64,000 nucleotides of DNA from Hymenobacter yonginensis (GTDB lineage Bacteria; Bacteroidota; Bacteroidia; Cytophagales; Hymenobacteraceae). This document shows positions 4,204-61,535 of this stretch, one piece after another. The stretch lies in the NCBI RefSeq assembly GCF_027625995.1, contig NZ_CP115396.1:2232001-2296000 (forward strand), read 5' to 3'. The first letter of the stretch is position 1; every line of letters begins with the position of its first letter. Made by a program: the position numbers and the translations under genes. The notes beneath the pieces were generated by a model. The model had not been told where the DNA came from. It made no database searches and worked only from the letters and a program-made list of their open reading frames with translations.

Positions 4204-7200
4204 ATGAAAACACCCTTACGCTCTGCGTTTACGCCCTTCAACCGCCGTATGTTGGGCCTCACTGTAGGCCTGGGCCTGATGGGCACCGTGGCGGCACAGG
4301 CCCAGACGGTTTATGGCCTCAACCGGACAACCAGCCAGCTGATTGTATCGACCTTTGCGAGCGGTACGCCTTCGTTTCTGCCCATCACGGGCGTAACCGC
4401 CGGCCAGACCATCGTTGGACTGGATTCGCGGCCGGCAACCGGCGAGCTGTTTGCGCTGGGATACACGGGTAGCGGCACGGCGCAGCTCTACACCATTAGC
4501 AAAACTTCCGGCGCGGCTACGCCCATCGGCGGTACACTGGCCCTGGCGCTGGGCAACGGCTTCGAGGGCGTTGGTTTCGACTTCAATCCGACCGTGGACC
4601 GCATCCGGGTAACGAGCCTGACGGGCACCAACTACCGCCTCAATCCCAACAACGGCGCCCTGGCTTTCACAGACGGTGTGCTGAACCTGCCCAGCGGTAC
4701 GCCGGCCGTAGGCTCGGTAGCGTATACCAACAGCTTTATCGGTACGGCTACTACCACGCTCTACGACGTGGACGAGAGCCGCTCGACGCTTTACATCCAG
4801 AATCCGCCCAACAACGGCACCCTGGCCTCGCCCGTGCCCATCACGCGCAACGCACTGCCGCTACTGGCGGCCGGCGACCAGACCGACCTCGACATCTATA
4901 CTGATCCGGCCAGCCGCACCCAAATTGCGCTGCTGACCGTGACGCGGTTCACCAACAACATTCCGCAGACCATCTTTTATACCCTGGATCTGGCTACCGG
5001 CAACGCCTCGCTGCTGATGACTGGCCAGGCAGGGCTGGCAGTGGATGATATTGCGTTTGGCATCGACCGGACGGCGCCGGCCCCGAGCGGGCAGCTGCTC
5101 TACGCGCTGAACACCAACAACACGCTGGTATCGTTCTACTCTAACACGCCCGGCTACATTCTGGCCGCCACGGCTATTACGGGCGTTACCGCCGGCCAAA
5201 CGCTGGTGGGCACCGACTTCCGGCCCAACAACGGCCAGTACATTGGCCTGGGCTACGATGCCACCACTACCGGTGCCAACACGCAGCTCTACAGCATTGT
5301 GCCGGCTACCGGCATAGCTACGCCTATCGGCGCGGCTATCCGGCTGGAGCTGGGCGGCCCGGCCGATAACATCGGCTTCGATTTCAACCCGACCGTGGAC
5401 CGCATCCGGGTGGTGAGCACTAACCGCGCCGATTTCCGCCTCAATCCCAACAACGGCGCCCTGGCCGCCACCGATGGCCAGCTTACGTACGCCGCCGGCG
5501 ACCCGAACGCCGGCACCGCGCCCCGCATCGGCACGGTGGGCTACACCAATAGCTACGTGGGCAGCACCAGCACAACGCTGTATGACATCGACGAGGCGCT
5601 CAGCATTCTGGCCATCCAGAACCCGCCGAATGCCGGCACCCTCAATACGGTAGGCAACAACACCGGGCTGACCCTGAATCCGAACAACGCTCTGGCCGAC
5701 CTCGACATCTTCTTCGACCAGAGCACCTCCACCAACCGGGCGTTCCTGACGGCCAACCCCGGCGGCCAGGCCACCAGCAACCTTTACACGCTGGACCTGG
5801 GCACGGCCAACCCCACGCTGGTGGGCGCCATCGGGCTGGGCATTCCGGTGCGCGACGTAGCCGCCCTGATTGGGGGCGCCAATGCCTCAGCGGCCCTGAC
5901 CGGGCGCCTGCTGTACGGTGTGGCCGGCGGCAACCTGGTGTCGTTTGACTCCGGCAACCCCGGCATTATCCGCACGGCTGTCAACATTACCGGCCTGCCT
6001 GCCAACGGCTCGCAGGTGCTGGTGGGCACCGACTTCCGCCCCGCCACTGGCATGCTGTATGCGCTCGGCTACGACGCCGCCAACCAGCAGGGCCAGCTCT
6101 ACACCCTGAACCTGACCACCGGGGCCCTGGCGCCGGTCGGCAGCCTGCAGGCCATGCCGCTGGGCACCGTGGCCTCCAGCATCGGCTTCGATTTCAACCC
6201 GGTTCCGGACCGGATCCGCATCACGTCGGCTTCTACCCAGGCTAATCTGCGAATGAACCCGAACGATGGCACGTTCCTCACGGACGGCACCCTCTCCAAC
6301 CCCAACGGCGCACCAGCGCTGTCGGCCGTGGGCTACACCAACAACGACAACAACACCGCCACCGGCACCACGCTCTACGGCTACGACCAGGCCCGCAACG
6401 TACTGCTGCGCTCCACCGATGCCAACGCCGGCACCTACGTAGACCAGGGCGCTACGGGTCTGACCATCACTCCGGGGGCTGATTTCGACATCTTCGCCGA
6501 CCTAACTACGCCGGCCACGCCCGTCAACACGGCGTATTTGGTAGCCGCCCCAACGGGCAGCAGCGCCGACAACCTGTACACCGTCGACCTGACCAGCGGC
6601 AGCGCCACGGTGGTAGGCCGCATCGGCAGCGGCTCCAACCTCACCGGCCTGGCTGCCTTCCTGACGCCGGTACTCAACGGCATCACCTGGACCGGCGCTA
6701 TCAGCAGTGACTGGACTAACCCGGGCAACTGGAACCCCATGCAGGTGCCTACTGCCACCGACAACGTCACGATTCCGGACGTCGCCAACGACCCGGTGGT
6801 AAGCACGCCCCAGCAAGTCAACAGCCTGCTGCTGGGCAGCGGCGCTACCCTCACCACGGCCGAGGGTAGCCAGCTCACCCTCAACGGCAACTTCACGAAC
6901 ACTGGCGGCTCGGTGCTAGGTACCGGCAATGGCGAATTCCGCTTCTCGGGCTCTACGGCCCAGACCATCAGCGGCACCAGCACAACCTTTAACAACCTGA
7001 CGGCCGGACCAGCAGGCGTAGTAGCCAACGCCCCGGTACTGGTGCAGCGGGTGCTGCTGCTGAATGGCAACCTCACATCCAACGGCAACCTGACGCTGCT
7101 TTCTAATGCCACCGGCACGGCCCACGTCGTAAACAATGGCTCGGCCGTTGTGAGTGGTACGGCTACGGTGCAGCGCTACATTGATGCCACCCGCAACGGC

Positions 7201-8556
7201 GGTAGCGGCTACCGCCACTACTCGGCGCCGGTGTCCGTGTCCACGGTGGCTGATCTGGCTACCAGTGGCTTCTCGCTGGTGGTGAACCCGGCCTACAACA
7301 CGGCTGCGGTACCAAGCGCCGTTACGCCCTTCCCCACGGTATTTGGGTATCGTGAAAGCCGGGTAACGACCAGCGGCAACCCTACCCCGCAGGATTTTGA
7401 CCGCGGCTTTATATCGCCTAACGCTACCACCGATACGCTGGTGGTTACCCGCGGCTACACGGTGAACATCCCGGCCGCACAGACCGTGGACTTCGTGGGC
7501 ACGCTCAACAATGGCACGTATACCGCCGGCGGCCTGACCCGCGGCACGCAGACCGAATCGGGCTGGCACCTGCGCGGCAACCCCTATCCATCGCCCATCG
7601 ACTGGGAGCTGGTAGTGCGCAACAACGTCGACGCTACCGTGTACGTGTACCGCTCTACGGGCCAGTACGCCGGCACTTACTCCACTTACACAGTAAACGG
7701 CACCGGCACCAACGGCGGCGAGCGGCGCATTGCCTCGGGCCAGGGCTTCTTCGTGCGGGCCAGCGTGCCGGGCACCTCGAACGCCTCGCTCACATTCACC
7801 AACACGGCGCGCTACACCACGTACGAAAACCCCGTGTTCCAGCGCGGCGCAGCCGACTCGCCTCTCGTGCGGCTGGATCTGCGCAGTGCGGCCGGCGCGG
7901 CCGATGAAGCCGTAGTGTATTTCGAGGACGCAGCCACTGCCGGCTTCGACTCGCAGCTGGATGCCTACAAGCTGCAGGGCGGTGCCCCGCTACTGCTGGC
8001 CAGTGAAGCTGCTTCGGGCACGCTGCTCGCCGTAAACGCCCTGCCGCAGCTCGCCCAGCGCGACGTGCTGGTGCCGCTGCGGGTGCAGGCTGCCGCTGGC
8101 AGCTACACGCTGCGTGCCACGGAGCTGTTGCGGCTGCCCGCCGGCACCTACGCCTACCTCCGCGACGCCCAGACCGGTGCCCTCACCGACCTCACGAGCC
8201 AGGCAGAATATAGCTTCTCGCTGAATACCGGGGCCGCTGCTACCGGTCGGTTCTCGCTGCTGCTCACCCAGCAGCGCGTGCTGGCCAACGCGCCGGCGTC
8301 TTTGAGCCAGCAGGTGGCCGTGTTCCCGAACCCCGCCCGCGGTACGGTATCGGTTAGCCTGCCGGCTTCGCTGGCCCGTGAGGCCACGGCCGTGCAGCTG
8401 GTGAACTCGCTTGGCCAGGCCGTACGCAGCCTCACGCTGCCCGCCGGCTCTACCGATGCTCGTCAGGTTTCGCTGTCGGGCGTGGCCGCCGGGGTGTACA
8501 CGCTGCGTCTGCAGACCACCCAGGGCACCATCAACAAGCGCCTGATCGTAGAATAG
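4204..8556 (+). CDS. Secreted triple-DUF4394 protein with T9SS sorting domain
   Basis: 1450 residues. A signal peptide ends near residue 32 (VAAQAQTVYG). Three DUF4394 repeats follow, each carrying GFDFNP.(V)DRIR(V/I), at about residues 124, 390 and 659, and each opening with a GxLLYxL/LV.F element. A linker with TWTGAISSDWTNPGNW starts near 826; such modules are common in Bacteroidota surface proteins. The last ~75 residues (VFPNPARGTVSVSLP through YTLRLQTTQGT) form a type A T9SS sorting domain, so the protein is probably exported and cell-surface attached. DUF4394 is predicted to be a beta-propeller-like fold of unknown function. GTG at 4201 directly precedes the ATG used here. Confidence 0.92.
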   Translation: MKTPLRSAFTPFNRRMLGLTVGLGLMGTVAAQAQTVYGLNRTTSQLIVSTFASGTPSFLPITGVTAGQTIVGLDSRPATGELFALGYTGSGTAQLYTISKTSGAATPIGGTLALALGNGFEGVGFDFNPTVDRIRVTSLTGTNYRLNPNNGALAFTDGVLNLPSGTPAVGSVAYTNSFIGTATTTLYDVDESRSTLYIQNPPNNGTLASPVPITRNALPLLAAGDQTDLDIYTDPASRTQIALLTVTRFTNNIPQTIFYTLDLATGNASLLMTGQAGLAVDDIAFGIDRTAPAPSGQLLYALNTNNTLVSFYSNTPGYILAATAITGVTAGQTLVGTDFRPNNGQYIGLGYDATTTGANTQLYSIVPATGIATPIGAAIRLELGGPADNIGFDFNPTVDRIRVVSTNRADFRLNPNNGALAATDGQLTYAAGDPNAGTAPRIGTVGYTNSYVGSTSTTLYDIDEALSILAIQNPPNAGTLNTVGNNTGLTLNPNNALADLDIFFDQSTSTNRAFLTANPGGQATSNLYTLDLGTANPTLVGAIGLGIPVRDVAALIGGANASAALTGRLLYGVAGGNLVSFDSGNPGIIRTAVNITGLPANGSQVLVGTDFRPATGMLYALGYDAANQQGQLYTLNLTTGALAPVGSLQAMPLGTVASSIGFDFNPVPDRIRITSASTQANLRMNPNDGTFLTDGTLSNPNGAPALSAVGYTNNDNNTATGTTLYGYDQARNVLLRSTDANAGTYVDQGATGLTITPGADFDIFADLTTPATPVNTAYLVAAPTGSSADNLYTVDLTSGSATVVGRIGSGSNLTGLAAFLTPVLNGITWTGAISSDWTNPGNWNPMQVPTATDNVTIPDVANDPVVSTPQQVNSLLLGSGATLTTAEGSQLTLNGNFTNTGGSVLGTGNGEFRFSGSTAQTISGTSTTFNNLTAGPAGVVANAPVLVQRVLLLNGNLTSNGNLTLLSNATGTAHVVNNGSAVVSGTATVQRYIDATRNGGSGYRHYSAPVSVSTVADLATSGFSLVVNPAYNTAAVPSAVTPFPTVFGYRESRVTTSGNPTPQDFDRGFISPNATTDTLVVTRGYTVNIPAAQTVDFVGTLNNGTYTAGGLTRGTQTESGWHLRGNPYPSPIDWELVVRNNVDATVYVYRSTGQYAGTYSTYTVNGTGTNGGERRIASGQGFFVRASVPGTSNASLTFTNTARYTTYENPVFQRGAADSPLVRLDLRSAAGAADEAVVYFEDAATAGFDSQLDAYKLQGGAPLLLASEAASGTLLAVNALPQLAQRDVLVPLRVQAAAGSYTLRATELLRLPAGTYAYLRDAQTGALTDLTSQAEYSFSLNTGAAATGRFSLLLTQQRVLANAPASLSQQVAVFPNPARGTVSVSLPASLAREATAVQLVNSLGQAVRSLTLPAGSTDARQVSLSGVAAGVYTLRLQTTQGTINKRLIVE

Positions 8557-8561
8557 CCGTT

Positions 8562-8610
8562 ACACTGCGGCCCGGCTGCCCAACCGTTGCTGGCAGCCGG
8601 GCCGCAGTGT
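8562..8610. other. Perfect 19-bp GC-rich hairpin between two genes
   Basis: ACACTGCGGCCCGGCTGCC at 8562-8580 is the exact reverse complement of 8592-8610, with an 11-base loop. No T-run follows, so it is not a normal terminator. It lies 5 bp after the DUF4394 stop and 39 bp before the PID-CTERM start; an mRNA-stabilising or processing role is possible. Confidence 0.7.
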
Positions 8611-9695: not shown

Positions 9696-11096
9696 TCAAC
9701 CGCCTTCCATCCGCACGATACGCGGCGTGAACGAGCCCAGCACATCCACCAGCTCGGTTTGGCTCTGCATCACGGCCCGAATGTCCTTGTAGGCCTGCGG
9801 GGCTTCGTCGAGGCCGCCGCCAATCAGCTCGATGCCGTGCTGCTGCAGGTAGCGCCGCACTTCCGCTTCGCCTAGCTCCTGCTTGGCCCGGGTCCGGGAC
9901 ATGGCCCGCCCCGCCCCGTGCGACGCCGACGACAGCGAGGCCGCCTCGCCCCGCCCCCGCACAATAAAGCCAGGAGCCGTCATGGAGCCGGGAATGATGC
10001 CAAGCACCCCGGCCCCGGCCGGCGTAGCGCCCTTGCGATGCACAATGGCCTCACGGCCATCGACTAGCCGTTCTTTCCAGGCGAAGTTATGGTGGTTTTC
10101 CACTTTCGCCAAGGGCCGCTCGCCTAAAGCTTTGGCCAGCCGCTGATGAATCTGGTGGTGGCAGGCCGAAGCGTAGTCACCGGCTAGGTTCATGGCGGCC
10201 CAGTATTCCTGGCCGGCCTCGCTATCCAGCGAAAGCCAGGCTAAGTGCTGCGCTTCGGCGGGCAGCTGGCAAACGTCTTTGGCGAGCTTGGTGTAGTGGT
10301 TGGCCACGCTGGCGCCCAGCCCCCGCGAGCCGCTGTGCGAGAGCAGCCCCAGGTACTGGCCTACCGGCACGTCCAGCTCATTGGTGGGGTCGAGGATATC
10401 GACCACGCCCCATTCCACGAAGTGGTTGCCGCCACCGGACGTGCCGATTTGCTCGGCAGCAGTGCCCTGCTTGTTACGCAGGAAGTTAATGTCGCGGAAC
10501 TCGGGGCGCTCCAGCACGGCGTGGTCGAGCTTCTGGCCGCGCACAAAGCCCTGCTTGTTGCCGAACCGCGTGTGCTCCAGCAGCAGCTTGCGCAGCTCCT
10601 GCACCCGCTGCTCCAGAAACTTGGGCGGCAGCGCAAACACTGACAGCGCCATCCGGCACCCAATGTCCACGCCCACGGCGTAGGGAATCACGGCGTTGTC
10701 GGTGGCCAGCACCCCGCCGATGGGCAGGCCGTAGCCGTGGTGGGCATCGGGCATGAGGGCGCCGGCCATGGTCACGGGCAGTTTCATGGCCGTTTCCATC
10801 TGGTGGATGGCGCCCTGCTCAATGTGTTCGGCCCCGAAGACGGCGTAGCTTTTCCGCTCGGCGAGGGCAATATGGCGGCTGGGCGCAGGCAGCAGCGCGG
10901 CGGCCGTATGGCTCCAGTCGAGGTCGGTAAGGAAGTCAGTAGGGTTTGCCAGCAGCGCCGTGAGCAGAGCCAATTGGTCGGTTTGAGAGAGTTTTTTGAG
11001 GTGCTTGCGCTGCAGCTGGGCCAGCGCCAGACCAATTGCCCGGCCCTCGGGAAACCCGAGCTGGCGCAAGTCGTTGCCACGTAATTGTGAAGCCAT
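9696..11096 (-). CDS. rtcB: RtcB family tRNA-splicing/RNA ligase
   Basis: 466 residues. Conserved RtcB elements appear in order: MPDAHHGYGLPIGGV, GVDIGCRM (metal-binding Asp and Cys), GGGNHFVEW, LLSHSGSRGLG, VENHHNFAWKE, HRKGATPA (the guanylylated His, about residue 350) and SHGAGR near the C-terminus. RtcB joins 2',3'-cyclic-phosphate ends to 5'-OH ends using GTP and Mn(II), so it repairs RNAs cut by ribotoxins. I start at MASQLRG; the 28-codon upstream extension is not family-like. It lies downstream of the Ro60-like gene and the tRNA-like modules on the same strand, the classical RNA-repair linkage. Confidence 0.95.
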   Translation of the reverse strand: MASQLRGNDLRQLGFPEGRAIGLALAQLQRKHLKKLSQTDQLALLTALLANPTDFLTDLDWSHTAAALLPAPSRHIALAERKSYAVFGAEHIEQGAIHQMETAMKLPVTMAGALMPDAHHGYGLPIGGVLATDNAVIPYAVGVDIGCRMALSVFALPPKFLEQRVQELRKLLLEHTRFGNKQGFVRGQKLDHAVLERPEFRDINFLRNKQGTAAEQIGTSGGGNHFVEWGVVDILDPTNELDVPVGQYLGLLSHSGSRGLGASVANHYTKLAKDVCQLPAEAQHLAWLSLDSEAGQEYWAAMNLAGDYASACHHQIHQRLAKALGERPLAKVENHHNFAWKERLVDGREAIVHRKGATPAGAGVLGIIPGSMTAPGFIVRGRGEAASLSSASHGAGRAMSRTRAKQELGEAEVRRYLQQHGIELIGGGLDEAPQAYKDIRAVMQSQTELVDVLGSFTPRIVRMEGG

Positions 11097-11250
11097 GATG
11101 GAGGAATTCGTGAGTGAGAAGTAGTTAATATTGAGTAGCTGGTATTGAGTATTAAGTACCAATCGTTGCTTATCAAGCAATTAACTATGATCTGTGAATG
11201 ATGGATAATGCGGATAACTGAGTAGAATTTTGTGTTGTATTTGCCGGATG

Positions 11251-11330
11251 AAAAAAGCTGGGCAACAAGCCGAACCGCCGCTTGGTAGTGACAGGACGAA
11301 GTATGGCGGCCCTACGGCACCAGCTTTTTT
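11251..11330 (-). ncRNA. Y-RNA-like module E (no tRNA-like domain; doubles as terminator)
   Basis: Last and shortest of five related units, about 80 nt on the minus strand. It opens with AAAAAAGCUGG and closes with CCAGCUUUUUU. Inside are the shared elements: 5' UGCCGUA, then an 8-bp helix GGGCCGCC/GGCGGUUC (two G.U pairs), then AUACUUCG, and on the 3' side UUGUUGCC. The T- and D-arms of units B-D are absent; a ~25-nt loop replaces them. The closing hairpin plus U-run should terminate transcription ~150 bp before rtcB. Confidence 0.7.
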
Positions 11331-11336
11331 CCGCCA

Positions 11337-11463
11337 ATTGGGCAACAGGGTGCAGGGCCCACATGCGTGCTCTAACCAACTGAGCTACTGCCTTGCGGCA
11401 GGTGGGACTTGAACCCACGACCCCACCGACCCCATCGAAGTAAGGCCCTGCTACGGCACCAAT
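11337..11463 (-). ncRNA. Y-RNA-like module D with permuted tRNA-like domain
   Basis: 127 nt. The stem has 5' AUUGGUGCCGUA and 3' CUGUUGCCCAAU, then a perfect 8-bp helix GCAGGGCC/GGCCCUGC and UACUUCG. The tRNA-like part is in circularly permuted order: T-arm (GUGGG-UUCAAGU-CCCAC), acceptor-like helix CUGCC/GGCAG capped by a GCAA tetraloop, then a D-arm UAGCUCAGUUGGUUAGAGCA. The former 5' and 3' ends of a tRNA are thus joined, and the Y-type stem takes the place of the anticodon arm. The order matches the tRNA-mimic domain described for bacterial YrlA RNAs. Confidence 0.82.
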
Positions 11464-11476
11464 CAGCCGGCAATTT

Positions 11477-11619
11477 GTACGGGGCAACAGGCGCCCGGCC
11501 TCCAAAAACCTGCTCTACCAACTGAGCTACAGCCGCCGCCGAAGCAGCAGCCAGCGGGACTCGAACCCGCGACCTGGGCGTTAAAAGCGCGAAGTATGGC
11601 CCGGCTACGGCACCCGTAC
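11477..11619 (-). ncRNA. Y-RNA-like module C with permuted tRNA-like domain
   Basis: 143 nt, closed by GUACGGG/CCCCGUAC. It shares UGCCGUA and UGUUGCC, then an upper helix GCCGGGCC/GGCCGGGC (7 of 8 pairs) and AUACUUCG. The tRNA-like part is permuted: T-arm GCGGG-UUCGAGU-CCCGC, a 10-bp acceptor-like helix capped by UUCG, then D-arm UAGCUCAGUUGGUAGAGCA. Because the T-loop sequence precedes the D-arm and the acceptor is closed by a tetraloop, it cannot be a translating tRNA. Upper-helix bases differ from the other units while pairing is kept. Confidence 0.82.
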
Positions 11620-11654
11620 AGAGTTACGCTAAAGTAAATAGGCAATAGAAATAG

Positions 11655-11799
11655 AATAAGACCGGGGCAACAGGTGAGAAACAGTGGCTGATGCCACCTC
11701 TGCTCTACCAGCTGAGCTACTGCCCGCCCTGACGCGGCCGGCAGACACGACTCGAACGTGCGACCCGAAGAAACGCTTCTCCACGGCACCCGACTTATT
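11655..11799 (-). ncRNA. Y-RNA-like module B with permuted tRNA-like domain
   Basis: 145 nt. An outer AAUAAG/CUUAUU pairing continues into GGGUGCCGUG and CUGUUGCCCC, then upper helix GAGAAGC/GUUUCUC. The motif after the helix is UUUCUUCG, a variant of UACUUCG. T-arm GCACG-UUCGAGU-CGUGU comes next, then acceptor-like CUGCC...GGCAG with a longer capped loop, then D-arm UAGCUCAGCUGGUAGAGCA and an extra small hairpin GUGGC-AUCA-GCCAC. The order is permuted as in units C and D. Confidence 0.8.
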
Positions 11800-11823
11800 A
11801 TAACGTCCTGAAACCACGGCGCT

Positions 11824-11942
11824 GGGGCAACGGTCAGCCGGCGGATTGTGCCCCGGCCGTAGCCGCGGCATGGGACTCGAACCCGGCAGCACTTCCGAAG
11901 AAGCCTGCTTCACCAGCGAAGTACCGCCCGCTTACGGCACCC
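11824..11942 (-). ncRNA. Y-RNA-like module A (degenerate tRNA-like domain)
   Basis: First unit transcribed after the Ro60-like gene, 119 nt. It has GGGUGCCGUAA at the 5' side and ACCGUUGCCCC at the 3' side, a 9-position helix AGCGGGCGG/CCGCCGGCU with one mismatch, then UACUUCG. A UUCG-capped hairpin (GGCUUC/GAAGU) follows, then a weakened T-arm (UUCGAGU loop, only three stem pairs) and an acceptor-like hairpin capped by UACG. The UAGCUC D-arm is missing. It therefore keeps the Y stem but has a diverged mimic domain. Confidence 0.7.
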
Positions 11943-11963
11943 AACGGCCGTAGTTCAGGGGTT

Positions 11964-12008
11964 GGAACGGGCGCCCGAGGCCAAATTGCCCCGGCGCCGC
12001 GCCGTTCC
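11964..12008 (-). other. GC-rich hairpin between ro60 and module A
   Basis: GGAACGG/CCGTTCC outer stem with nested GGCGCC pairing. It lies between the TROVE stop and the first Y-RNA-like unit and could be a processing or attenuation structure separating mRNA from RNA array. There is no T-run. Confidence 0.45.
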
Positions 12009-12162
12009 GGCCGACGGCTGCCGAATAGTGGTCAGCCGCCTTCCCAAAGAGTTTACGATGTACTGGACATGATTATTGCGTGAGGCTTGTAGAAAATCGG
12101 GCAGAGGCCCGGGAGCAGCGGCAGCTTTTCTTGGCGGAATACCACTCCCGGGGTTGCGGGTA

Positions 12163-13689
12163 TTAGAAGTCAATCGATTCGATTTCGGTGAGGGCGGAGC
12201 CACCGTTTTCCAGCGCCGCCAGCACGTCGAACACTTTGTCGGACCAGCCAGCAATCAGGGCCACTCCGTCCTCGGCGCGCACGTCGAGGGGGGCGGTGCC
12301 GTGGCCGGCCAGGTCGAAGAGGTACAGCCGCGCCTGGGGCGCCACCGTGCGGCGGTAGTCGGCCCACTCCTTGGCGATGCTAGTGCCAAAGGGGGCGGAG
12401 TTCCAGAGCTGGCAGTCGGTAAACACCAGCACCTTGTCTACCACCTCGCGGCGGCGCTTCAGGTCCTCGATAACGAGGTAGCCGTTGGTGCTGTAGCCGA
12501 CCTCGCCTTCGCGCCGGTAGAACTCGTCGACGTTGCGCAAAACCGGGCCGCGGGGCAAGCTCAGCCGCTTCCAGGTGTTGCCGAACATGCCGGCCACCAC
12601 GTGCTGGCAGCGGCTCTGCAGCAGCATACCCAGCACCAGGCCCACGTCGTAGAGCAGCACTTTGCTGCGCGGCGACACCGGCTGCTGCATCGAGCCCGAC
12701 ACGTCGCAGGCAATTACCACGCGGGTGTCGGGGCCGAAGCCGCGCAGGTTGGCGGCGCTGTGGCTGATGGCGTCTTCCAACGCCGCCAGCACCGCCGACA
12801 CGTGGCCGCCGTGCAGGGCTTTCACCTCGCGGTAGGCCGCCAGAAACCGGAAGGGCAGCTGCTTGCTGCGCGCCACCGCAAACCGGTCGGCCAGGGCGGC
12901 GCACACCTCCACCATCGTTTCGGCCGACACGTCGGCTTCGAGGATATTGCGCAGGTTGCGCAGCAGGGCCATGTAGCCCAGCTTGCCGCTGCCAATCAGC
13001 TCGGTCCATTTCTGGCGGAAGGCCGCCGTGCGCTCCGCCGGCGTGGCGTAGGTCACCTGCCCCAGCGCCGACAGCTCGGTTTCCCAGGTGTAGGGCGTGG
13101 GCAGCGTGCCCGCCACCAGGTGGTTGAACAAGGCTTGCTGCTCGGCGTTTTTGGCGGCAGGGTGCACCAGAAACAGCGCGTCGCGGAGGCGAACGGCGCC
13201 GGCCCGGTCGTACTTGGCCAGCTGGTAGCCGTCGAAACGGTTGAAGCTTTGGGCCAGGCCTTTCTGCACCTGCTTGGAGAGGCGGTTGAGGGTTTTGCGG
13301 CCGGTGCGCTGGTTGGCCTGCGTGTAGAAGGCCAGCAGCTCCGTGATTTCGTCGGGGCGCTGCACGATGCGGGCTACCAGGCGGCTCACGAGGCTGTCGC
13401 CGCAGTGGCGACGGGTCAGCTCCACGGCCAGCACCAAAGGCACGGAGCGTAGGTGCATCCGCTCCCGGGCATACACCGCCAGCTGGGCCACAAAGCGAGG
13501 CTCGCACCGCGCCACCAGCTCCCGGAGTCGCGTCAGCCGCGTATCGGCCGTTTCGTAGAACTGGTCGGCGAGGGCCGTGGTGGCCACGGCGGCGTACAGC
13601 TCCAGCGCAGGCGACAAAGTGAAAGCGGCAGCCCCGGCGTGGTTTACGGTATCGGGCCGGGCTTTGCGGAAGGGTAAATTAAAACGCAT
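12163..13689 (-). CDS. rsr: Ro60/Rsr-like TROVE domain protein
   Basis: 508 residues. The first ~320 are helical HEAT-like TROVE repeats (LTRLRELVARCEPRF, GDSLVSRLVARIVQRPDE, YMALLRNLRNILE). A von Willebrand A domain follows, with the MIDAS motif ACDVSGSMQ near residue 330 and a later VLVFTDCQLW. Ro60/Rsr proteins form a ring that binds misfolded RNA ends in its cavity and Y RNA on its outside; in Deinococcus and Salmonella Rsr works with Y RNAs and nucleases in RNA quality control. Five Y-RNA-like modules follow directly on the same strand, then rtcB, so ligand RNAs and ligase are probably co-expressed. No RtcR-type sigma-54 regulator is visible nearby. Confidence 0.95.
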   Translation of the reverse strand: MRFNLPFRKARPDTVNHAGAAAFTLSPALELYAAVATTALADQFYETADTRLTRLRELVARCEPRFVAQLAVYARERMHLRSVPLVLAVELTRRHCGDSLVSRLVARIVQRPDEITELLAFYTQANQRTGRKTLNRLSKQVQKGLAQSFNRFDGYQLAKYDRAGAVRLRDALFLVHPAAKNAEQQALFNHLVAGTLPTPYTWETELSALGQVTYATPAERTAAFRQKWTELIGSGKLGYMALLRNLRNILEADVSAETMVEVCAALADRFAVARSKQLPFRFLAAYREVKALHGGHVSAVLAALEDAISHSAANLRGFGPDTRVVIACDVSGSMQQPVSPRSKVLLYDVGLVLGMLLQSRCQHVVAGMFGNTWKRLSLPRGPVLRNVDEFYRREGEVGYSTNGYLVIEDLKRRREVVDKVLVFTDCQLWNSAPFGTSIAKEWADYRRTVAPQARLYLFDLAGHGTAPLDVRAEDGVALIAGWSDKVFDVLAALENGGSALTEIESIDF

Positions 13690-14486: not shown

Positions 14487-15392
14487 ATGCCGCGCCTCGC
14501 CACCTCCGAACGATACAGCATCAGCCTGCCTGATGGCCACCGCTTCCCGATTGCCAAGTACGAGCTGATTCGGGAGCAGCTGCTGTGGCAAGGCATTGCG
14601 CCCGCCGCCGACTTCTACGACCCCGGCCTGGCCAGCGAGGAAGACATCCTGCGGGTACACTCCGCCGATTACTGGCACCGCGTGCGCGACCTGCAGCTGA
14701 CGGCCGCCGAGGTGCGCCGCCTGGGCTTGCCGCAAAGCCCGGAGCTGGTGCGCCGCTCGCTGAGCAGCGTGGCGGGCACGGTGCAGTCGGCGCAGGAAGC
14801 GCTGCGCACGGGCATCGGCATGAGCCTGGCCGGCGGCACCCACCACGCGTTCCGCGACCGGGGCGAGGGATTCTGTGTGCTCAACGACATTGCCGTGGCC
14901 GCCGCGCACCTGCTCCACCACGGCCTGGCCCGGCAGGTGCTGGTCGTGGACCTCGACGTGCATCAGGGCGACGGCACGGCCAGCATCTTCCGGGATGAGC
15001 CGCGCGTGTTCACCTTCAGCATGCACGCCGGCGCCAACTACCCGCTACGCAAGGAGCAGTCGGACCTGGACATTGCGCTGGATTTGGGCACCGACGACGC
15101 CACCTACCTACGCCTGCTCCACGACACGCTGCCCGGCCTGCTGGCGCGTGTGCAGCCCGATTTCGTGTTTTTCCAGGCCGGCGTAGACGTGCTGGCCACC
15201 GACAAGCTGGGCAAGCTGGCCCTCACGCTCTCCGGCTGCCGCCAGCGCGACGAGTACGTGCTGCGCCTCTGCCACCAGCACCGCCTGCCCGTAGCCGTAA
15301 GCATGGGCGGCGGCTACTCCGAACGCCTCTCCGACATTGTAGACGCCCATTGCAACACGTTTCGGGTAGCGTATGAGGTGTGTTTTTTGTAA
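14487..15392 (+). CDS. Histone deacetylase/AcuC family protein
   Basis: 301 residues. The arginase/deacetylase fold signatures are present: GGTHHAFRDRGEGFCVLND (tandem active-site His, about residues 116-118), VVDLDVHQGDGTA (Zn-binding Asp and His) and FFQAGVDVLATDKLGKL (second Asp), ending with VSMGGGY (the Tyr/Gly motif). Bacterial members remove acetyl groups from acetyl-CoA synthetase, polyamines or other small amines; the substrate cannot be inferred here. The ATG at 14487 gives the expected N-terminus. A family-1 repeat sits just upstream, so the promoter must be close. Confidence 0.93.
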   Translation: MPRLATSERYSISLPDGHRFPIAKYELIREQLLWQGIAPAADFYDPGLASEEDILRVHSADYWHRVRDLQLTAAEVRRLGLPQSPELVRRSLSSVAGTVQSAQEALRTGIGMSLAGGTHHAFRDRGEGFCVLNDIAVAAAHLLHHGLARQVLVVDLDVHQGDGTASIFRDEPRVFTFSMHAGANYPLRKEQSDLDIALDLGTDDATYLRLLHDTLPGLLARVQPDFVFFQAGVDVLATDKLGKLALTLSGCRQRDEYVLRLCHQHRLPVAVSMGGGYSERLSDIVDAHCNTFRVAYEVCFL

Positions 15393-61441: not shown

Positions 61442-61535
61442 GTTTTTATACAGAGGCGTGGAGAGACAGGCTCGACGAAACGCCGGCAACCAGCGGATCT
61501 TCCGAAACGGTGCCAAGTCCTGACCATATAAAAAC
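61442..61535 (+). ncRNA. SAM-I (S-box) riboswitch
   Basis: P1 is a perfect 9-bp helix (GTTTTTATA 61442-61450 / TATAAAAAC 61527-61535). Inside, the conserved core reads AGAGGCG, GGAGAGACAGGCTCGACGAA, then CGCCGGCAACC and later ACGGTGCCAAGTCCTGAC. These correspond to the S-box core elements GAGGGA..GGC...GAAACCCGGCAACC and GGTGC.AA.TCC. It binds S-adenosylmethionine and shuts down Met/Cys pathway genes. No terminator hairpin follows P1; the next element is the GTG of a uORF 9 bp later, so translational control is possible. Confidence 0.92.

Follow-up and report, generated by a model that had tools for sequence, protein, structure and literature searches.

The window analysed here, a stretch of 64,000 nucleotides from Hymenobacter yonginensis (contig NZ_CP115396.1, positions 2,232,001 to 2,296,000), carries on its minus strand a gene for Ro60, a ring protein of RNA quality control, then five Y-RNA-like units (11251-11946) and then a gene for the RNA ligase RtcB. 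The interval of about 1 kb between the two genes is without a long gene and contains the five units, which share a 5' element and differ in their tRNA-like parts. The reading that is preferred here, drawn from sequence comparison and held with evenly balanced confidence, is that the Ro60, Y RNA and RtcB genes form a locus of a kind typical of Bacteroidota, whose panel of Y RNAs would be tRNA look-alikes held by Ro60 and acting as decoys or tethers in tRNA repair. The features are as follows, R1 being a covariance model that is described in the next section.

12163..13689, minus strand: Ro60/Rsr (TROVE plus vWA), 508 amino acids (Pfam PF05731, E 5.8e-31)
11820..11946, minus strand: Y RNA unit 1; basal stem, UUCG hairpin, T loop and acceptor-like helix (R1, fold, cluster K)
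11661..11794, minus strand: Y RNA unit 2; T arm, acceptor-like helix, D arm and an extra hairpin 3' of the D arm (R1; YrlA, 30.5 bits)
11476..11620, minus strand: Y RNA unit 3; bulged-U basal stem, helix II, anticodon-like hairpin, T arm, loop-closed acceptor-like helix and D arm (fold and class-A consensus)
11333..11467, minus strand: Y RNA unit 4; possible small hairpin, T arm, short acceptor-like helix and D arm (R1)
11251..11330, minus strand: Y RNA unit 5; no helices beyond the basal stem and helix II (R1; fold z -2.21)
9696..11096, minus strand: RtcB RNA ligase (Pfam PF01139, E 8.7e-83)

The ATG start of RtcB was taken from the sequence, the Pfam query for this protein having started 12 bases earlier. 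Ro60 also matched two solved TROVE proteins (E 4.3e-26), the vWA_Ro60 model at a level below that model's cut-off (E 4.4e-5) and the NCBIfam Rsr model far below its cut-off (E 4.9e-7); the match of RtcB to the NCBIfam RtcB model was under the cut-off as well. RtcB lies in the same transcriptional direction as Ro60 and the units, as would be expected of an RtcB repair operon. Of the words sampled from the window 26% are also present in the nearest genome compared, where Ro60 has 97% and RtcB 100% identity to the counterpart in the window.

Detection of the five units

The whole window was searched with R1, a custom covariance model for which 39 units of class A, to which window unit 3 belongs, were used. 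Unit 3, which was itself in the training set, scored 162.5 bits (E 3e-43), followed by unit 4 (84.0 bits, E 1.8e-21), unit 2 (68.5 bits, E 3.5e-17), unit 5 (37.2 bits, E 1.6e-8) and unit 1 (29.0 bits, E 2.9e-6). These were the only significant matches in the window, the next best having an E value of 0.75. Together with the Pfam matches this bears out a first-pass annotation of the region, made from the letters alone, which had placed five units between Ro60 and RtcB on one strand and had taken them for Y-RNA-like genes of an Rsr/Ro60-RtcB locus.

The units share the 5' element RRRUGYCGURRNNNNGYSNUNCUUCG, with which the 3' end of the unit pairs around a bulged U; it is through this basal stem that Ro60 would be expected to bind. 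The element was 26 nt long in 295 of 296 matches to a regular expression that permitted 24-26 nt only, and since a unit with a longer element is present in another locus (L037), all unit counts given here are lower bounds. A weight matrix of the element, whose training set of 219 distinct elements contained most or all of those in the window, gave units 1 to 5 scores of 34, 29, 40, 37 and 36 bits; the top score in 2.63 Mb of shuffled intergenic sequence was 9.8 bits.

The check that the first-pass annotation had proposed, a search with the YrlA covariance model (Rfam RF02553), succeeded in part. In a permissive search units 4, 3 and 2 were matched with 39.7, 39.7 and 30.5 bits (E 5e-7, 5.1e-7 and 2.3e-4), all below the gathering score of 69, and units 1 and 5 were not listed; Rfam used at gathering level would miss all the units, and the permissive search catches three of the five. 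Two tRNA calls in the region are misreadings: that of Rfam at 11394-11536 fuses the D arm of unit 3 with the T arm of unit 4, and the tRNA-Lys(TTT) that ARAGORN places at 11544-11615 is really the 5' half of unit 3. The RNAs are presumably transcribed separately. A promoter scan of the region was uninformative, with 2 sites against 0.9 expected, and a terminator scan found 5 against 4.2, which is near chance overall.

Consensus structure of class A

An alignment of 39 of the 49 class-A units (window unit 3 and relatives) was made with MAFFT. The consensus contains six helices: the basal stem with its bulged U, helix II, a hairpin at the place of an anticodon arm, a T arm, an acceptor-like helix closed by a loop, and a D arm. 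Of its 43 pairs 22 show changes on both sides with pairing kept, 96.1% of the aligned cells pair, and the covariation score of 0.403 exceeds that of shuffles (0.177) and of slid controls (0.127 at most). It is this covariation that was relied upon, because the single-sequence folding energies alone are unconvincing (z scores of -1.89, -1.37, -0.40, -1.22 and -2.21 for units 1 to 5). In the basal stem six of ten pairs are changed on both sides, a count in which this helix is favoured because the 3' ends of the units were picked by their pairing with the 5' end. The pairs of the D arm show no variation, and among the seven pairs of the anticodon-like hairpin three are invariant, two have one-sided changes and one is changed on both sides; since their pairs vary so little, these two elements are less strongly backed by the sequence data. 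In the main class-A form the three pairs of the small stem of this hairpin are formed in 40, 42 and 42 of 42 units, and its closing pair has changed from A-U to G-C in 8 units.

The class-A head has four hairpins and the Rfam YrlA consensus three; the extra one is that at the anticodon-arm place, where the structure line of the Rfam model has no hairpin. The arms are permuted and the acceptor-like helix is loop-closed, so that there is neither the contiguous cloverleaf nor the free acceptor end of a functional tRNA. Cluster labels used here come from a rough average-linkage clustering (98 clusters), and the classes C/F and E/M are defined by start triplet and length.

The individual units of the window

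The minimum free energy (MFE) fold of unit 3 reproduces the class-A consensus helices. Its anticodon-like hairpin, GCG-CUUUUAA-CGC, has a stem of 3 bp and a loop identical to that of tRNA-Lys(UUU); at this position the nearest genome (L075) has CUCUUAA and another relative (L077) CUUUUAA. The possible loop of unit 4, AUGGGGU, is identical to the 7-mer of the tRNA-Pro(GGG) loop of the nearest genome; L077 has AUUGGGU in its unit. The small hairpin of unit 4 is not formed in the single-sequence MFE fold. In unit 2 there is no anticodon-like hairpin in front and a hairpin is located after the D arm instead; its MFE fold forms the T arm, the acceptor-like helix and this extra hairpin, and not the D arm. 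In unit 1 the stem below the T loop has only 3 bp, the D arm is absent, and a UUCG hairpin stands at the place where some relatives in clusters H and O carry an Asn anticodon arm; in our own reading the hairpin and these arms are counterparts. Unit 5 has neither T nor D arm, all tRNA-like parts being missing; it contains the 7-mer CUGUCAC (tRNA-Asp loop; cluster z32) without a good closing stem. Its 3' end is a U-tract, terminator-like sites lie at 11281-11261, and the unit may double as the terminator of the array before rtcB.

The first-pass description of three units with full tRNA-like domains (units 2, 3 and 4, each with T and D arms), one degenerate (unit 1) and one without (unit 5) thus agrees with these structures. 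What it overlooked is the anticodon-like hairpin, the class-II (Leu/Ser) mimics that relatives carry and, immediately upstream of unit 1, a sixth structured element that is conserved:

11958..12045, minus strand: two hairpins, without the Y-RNA 5' element

A strict motif for this element is present in 18 of 50 same-genus loci (see below); 13 of the 18 were folded, giving 27 pairs of which 7 keep pairing with both sides changed.

Anticodon-like loops

The loop found in unit 3 belongs to a pattern that is kept across units. In class A (49 units, 7-nt loop) U33 is present in 46, a pyrimidine at 32 in all 49 and a purine at 37 (R37) in 48, with 14 different triplets at 34-36; read as an anticodon, the triplet is that of Lys in 26 units and of Arg in 12. 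The 32 units of class B/G/N have U33 in 29 and R37 in 29, with Pro (21) and Leu (4) triplets, and a short class that starts with GGA has U33 in 33 and R37 in 19 of its 34 units, with a majority of Asp triplets (23/34). In the other short class (E/M) 19 of 26 triplets are those of Phe; these come from 26 of 30 units whose loops were chosen by a CT pattern, so that U33 in them is present by selection.

The 35 anticodon-loop 7-mers of the tRNAs of the nearest genome served as reference loops. Of 408 Hymenobacter units 120 had an exact copy just 3' of the 5' element, where 200 shuffles gave a mean of 7.9 and at most 16; the count of 120 includes 21 matches to ATGGGGT of which many probably lie in the variable region and not in a loop. 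In a separate set from other Bacteroidota 27 of 202 units had such a copy (1000 shuffles: mean 4.9, maximum 13), and further along these units the same 7-mers occurred in only 1/168, 6/161 and 3/151. Orthologous units are non-independent observations; when each of 36 clusters was represented by one member drawn at random, and ATGGGGT matches were omitted except at position 26, the mean count was 6.99 and the minimum 3, against 0.63 and a maximum of 4. Hairpins with a 7-nt loop are themselves in excess (275 of 368 units, 161-185 in shuffles). Only the offsets 26-28 support the anticodon-loop idea, because U33 is rare at several other offsets.

Furthermore, a 17-nt tRNA-Asn anticodon arm is present exactly (17/17) in seven genomes of the set of 50 loci, and units shuffled once each match it at 14/17 at most. 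Two loci (L136 and L073) have the same Asn stem with one loop base changed.

Mimicry of tRNA bodies

The resemblance extends beyond the loops. T and D arms are both present in 153 same-genus units; the D arm is of Leu type in 24 of them and of Ser type in 11, and in 24 of these 35 the variable/T region best fits the tRNA of the same amino acid (Leu 19/24, Ser 5/11); in 10000 shuffles the mean was 4.65 and the maximum 12. Two or more kinds of body occur in 31 of 50 arrays. The bodies of the window (units 2, 3 and 4) are of the common kind only.

Two other kinds of head were observed. One recurrent type (units L235.2, L242.3, L247.8, L250.1, L254.8, L258.1 and L267.1) has the form GGGGAGGA...GGUUCGA.UCC...GCCCC; in these GGGGAGGA units the T arm lies within an outer GGGG/CCCC helix, an arrangement that is not permuted. 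The other is a head like 23S rRNA domain IV (the CGUAACUAUAACGGUCCUAAGGUAGC region), found in units of 196-214 nt: L268 unit 3, L260 unit 4 (about 8356-8570), L247 unit 6, L139 unit 10 and L273 unit 2. Their Smith-Waterman (SW) scores against 23S rRNA are 65, 62, 56, 52 and 48, compared to a maximum of 38 in a small set of 150 shuffles; another two to three units reach 45-40, and L139 unit 8, with 38, is not above the null. The sole match of L260 unit 4 elsewhere in its own genome is of 25 bases (E 1.6e-4), in a gene that Rfam calls large-subunit (LSU) rRNA.

Distribution in the genus and phylum

Ro60 was present in 58 of 119 relatives; 60 Ro60 loci were analysed, and the same-genus set comprises 50 loci including that of the window. 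These carry 3 to 11 units: 3 (3 loci), 4 (4), 5 (7), 6 (12), 7 (10), 8 (10), 9 (2), 10 (1) and 11 (1), and RtcB follows the array in all 50. Eleven loci of other families of the same order have 4, 4, 2, 10, 5, 2, 8, 0, 6, 2 and 6 units.

A named set, overlapping in genomes with the 50 loci, was made of the best 80 of 571 confirmed Ro60 loci, the closest 37 being from Hymenobacter (36) and Solirubrum (1). At least one element lies downstream of Ro60 on the same strand in 80/80; the opposite strand and the interior of Ro60 are without any element in these 80 loci, and elements upstream of Ro60 occur in one only (L273, five elements). The Hymenobacter/Solirubrum loci have 3-11 units (median 7) and the 43 from other Bacteroidota 1-8 (median 3); RtcB follows in 37/37 of the former.

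In an even sample of the phylum the strict form of the element was present in 25 of 395 genomes, 13 of them with two or more; a reversed pattern occurred once each in 8 genomes, and hence the 12 genomes with a single element may be chance. TROVE was found in 19 of 247 genomes of the phylum sample. When 18 TROVE loci were scanned within about 1 kb (threshold 9 bits) 14 had at least one element, 12 at least two and 4 none. On these counts the five units of the window, which the first-pass annotation had taken to be unusually many, are ordinary for the genus, and arrays follow most Ro60 genes of the phylum; Ro60 itself is a minority trait there. The unit classes recur across species, each keeping a different structure. 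It is in this sense, as recurrent and structurally different classes common to several species and with different tRNA-like parts, that the earlier suggestion of a set of specialised RNAs holds.

Discussion

It is proposed that one Ro60 is encoded with a panel of Y RNAs that have a common, presumed Ro60-binding handle and differing tRNA-like heads. The handle would consist of the basal stem with bulged U and the conserved 5' element, usually of 26 nt; the head of the best-studied class is a circularly permuted tRNA, with an anticodon-like hairpin, variable region, T arm, loop-closed acceptor helix and D arm. Ro60 would hold the RNAs by the constant stem, their heads would serve as decoys or tethers for tRNA-handling or tRNA-attacking proteins, and RtcB would reseal cut tRNAs. 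That the heads are decoys for enzymes that cut tRNAs is about as likely as that they are tethers for enzymes that handle them.

Related systems offer precedents. The Salmonella rsr-yrlBA-rtcBA operon likewise brings Ro60, Y RNAs and RtcB together in one locus; as described in PMC7790460, it is induced by tRNA fragments and implicated in tRNA repair, and its authors raised the possibility that YrlA competitively inhibits an anticodon nuclease. That operon names two Y RNAs, whereas the same-genus loci here carry 3-11 diversified units. YrlA (RF02553; Salmonella YrlA/YrlB) is similarly Ro60-adjacent, with a basal stem and a permuted order of T arm, acceptor-like helix and D arm; unlike the heads here its Rfam consensus has no anticodon-like hairpin among its three, and the scores obtained here were under the gathering cut-off. 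In the Deinococcus complex RYPER, as presented in PMC8394870 and PMC8058203, a Y RNA head also links Ro60 (Rsr) to a partner, PNPase, whereas in the present loci the heads are diversified. Closer in phylogeny, Y RNAs are reported from the Ro60 ribonucleoproteins (RNPs) of the Bacteroidota member Bacteroides thetaiotaomicron (Greiling et al., cited after PMC11277228). By the description in PMC12282133, an Rsr-like gene of Listeria phage CKA15 has three putative Y RNA regions close by that are highly transcribed; here the carrier is a phage, and the authors are undecided whether the regions are Y RNAs. In the literature searched such arrays, or anticodon-like hairpins in Y RNAs, are not described, and Chen 2014 may include Bacteroidota arrays.

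Several observations weigh against the proposed panel of look-alikes. When loop columns were shuffled within classes, the 7 distinct real loops observed compared with a mean of 7.54 and were reached in 3680 of 5000 shuffles; because such shuffles give equal numbers of distinct loops, nothing about loop identity is proven that goes further than the general U33/R37 pattern. Pooling positions 26-28 gave 9 distinct exact loops where 4.8 were expected (149 of 5000 shuffles reached this number), and position 28 by itself gave 5 where 3.7 were expected (1471 of 5000). The loops are thus shown to be anticodon-loop-like, which is not proof that every one of them matches a single tRNA. In classes A and B the small stems have mostly 3 bp, the 5' side of the class B stem belongs to the conserved CUUCG, units 1, 2 and 5 of the window have no proper anticodon hairpin, and the choice of 3' ends noted above bears on the basal stem. 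At the level of loci, L063, a Ro60 locus of the same order, has zero units, and RtcB lies within the 6-kb flank in only 17 of the 43 named loci outside Hymenobacter/Solirubrum. A PrrC-type nuclease was considered as a partner; PF13166 is found over its cut-off in only 10 of 81 genus genomes, so that no partner nuclease is identified and no link is claimed. Near-full-length PF13166 matches occur in two genomes (G514 and G025).

The alternative with most in its favour, which we regard as possible, is that these are ordinary multi-copy YrlA-type RNAs with one job for all heads, such as the Ro60-PNPase tether of Deinococcus, where Rsr is joined to PNPase by a Y RNA according to PMC8394870 and PMC7790460, and that the differences are due to drift and dosage. 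The YrlA model does match units 2-4, if below its cut-off; copy number is freely variable from 3 to 11, and distinct real loops are not in excess over the within-class column shuffles. If drift alone were at work, however, one would not expect positions 34-36 to vary with U33 and R37 retained. Also against this alternative are the classes that recur across species with their distinct structures retained, the class-II heads that are mostly isotype-consistent, and the exact tRNA-Asn anticodon arm in seven genomes.

An extension of the proposed panel is offered as a tentative speculation: Bacteroidota Ro60 loci might be modular libraries of RNA bait, in which the handle is repeated up to 11 times and each copy would show a different RNA region attacked by ribonuclease toxins (the anticodon loops of numerous tRNAs, class-II tRNA bodies and, in Chryseobacterium and Prevotella, the piece like 23S rRNA domain IV), in Hymenobacter beside a ligase that repairs cuts of this sort.

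It is unlikely that the units are sensors, in which the anticodon-like hairpins are sacrificial substrates and tRNase cleavage followed by RtcB resealing reports tRNA damage. The constant linkage to RtcB in the 37 named Hymenobacter/Solirubrum loci would suit such a role, as would the signalling to the Salmonella operon by tRNA fragments with cyclic phosphate ends; yet PMC7790460, which describes that signalling, states that no Salmonella YrlA fragments were detected in tRNA-cleaving conditions. Very improbable is the idea of permuted tRNA genes whose ends RtcB would join at the Y stem to give functional tRNAs: the tRNA parts are indeed in permuted order and RtcB adjoins, but the acceptor end is loop-closed, the conserved long Y stem would need removal, and the arrays contain units without any tRNA part. 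A decaying tRNA cluster or chance similarity, to which the fragments called by tRNA finders might point, can be given hardly any credence in view of the covariation, the units downstream of Ro60 in all 80 named loci and the finding of all five window units by R1.

With a constant presumed handle and varied tRNA-like heads, the published suggestion of competition between Y RNA and a tRNA nuclease becomes directly testable, and the arrays are a natural variant series of Y RNAs in environmental bacteria.

Neighbouring genes and other contigs

A gene for a PARG-like protein lies downstream of Ro60 in 16 of the 37 named Hymenobacter/Solirubrum loci and in none of the 43 others (tblastn), a difference from the Salmonella operon. 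In the two examples scanned (L041:3488-4402 and L138:8168-9016) it is PF10021 (PARG_cat_microb), which suggests a link to ADP-ribosylation; in both the gene is placed between Ro60 and the bulk of the array. The Ro60-RtcB interval of the window has no open reading frame of this length. In L138 a gene for a PcfJ-like protein (5280-6584, minus strand) is inserted between array units 9 and 10. PADLOC gave no match for the Ro60, RtcB, PARG-like or PcfJ-like proteins.

Among 23 IMG/VR contigs with the element, 7 encode a Ro60 relative (L142, L146, L152, L156, L159, L161 and L162); the viral contigs L146 and L156 encode an RtcB-like protein too, and L161 has five consecutive elements. In two other Bacteroidota loci (L287 and L288) a divergent regulator-like gene, WYL-like by eye only, faces Ro60, and in Chryseobacterium defluvii a run of 14 tRNA genes lies upstream of Ro60 (L260:1293-3289). 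The gene upstream of Ro60 in the window is histone-deacetylase-like (14487-15392), and an S-adenosylmethionine (SAM) riboswitch is found at 61443-61534 on the plus strand (E 1.4e-15).

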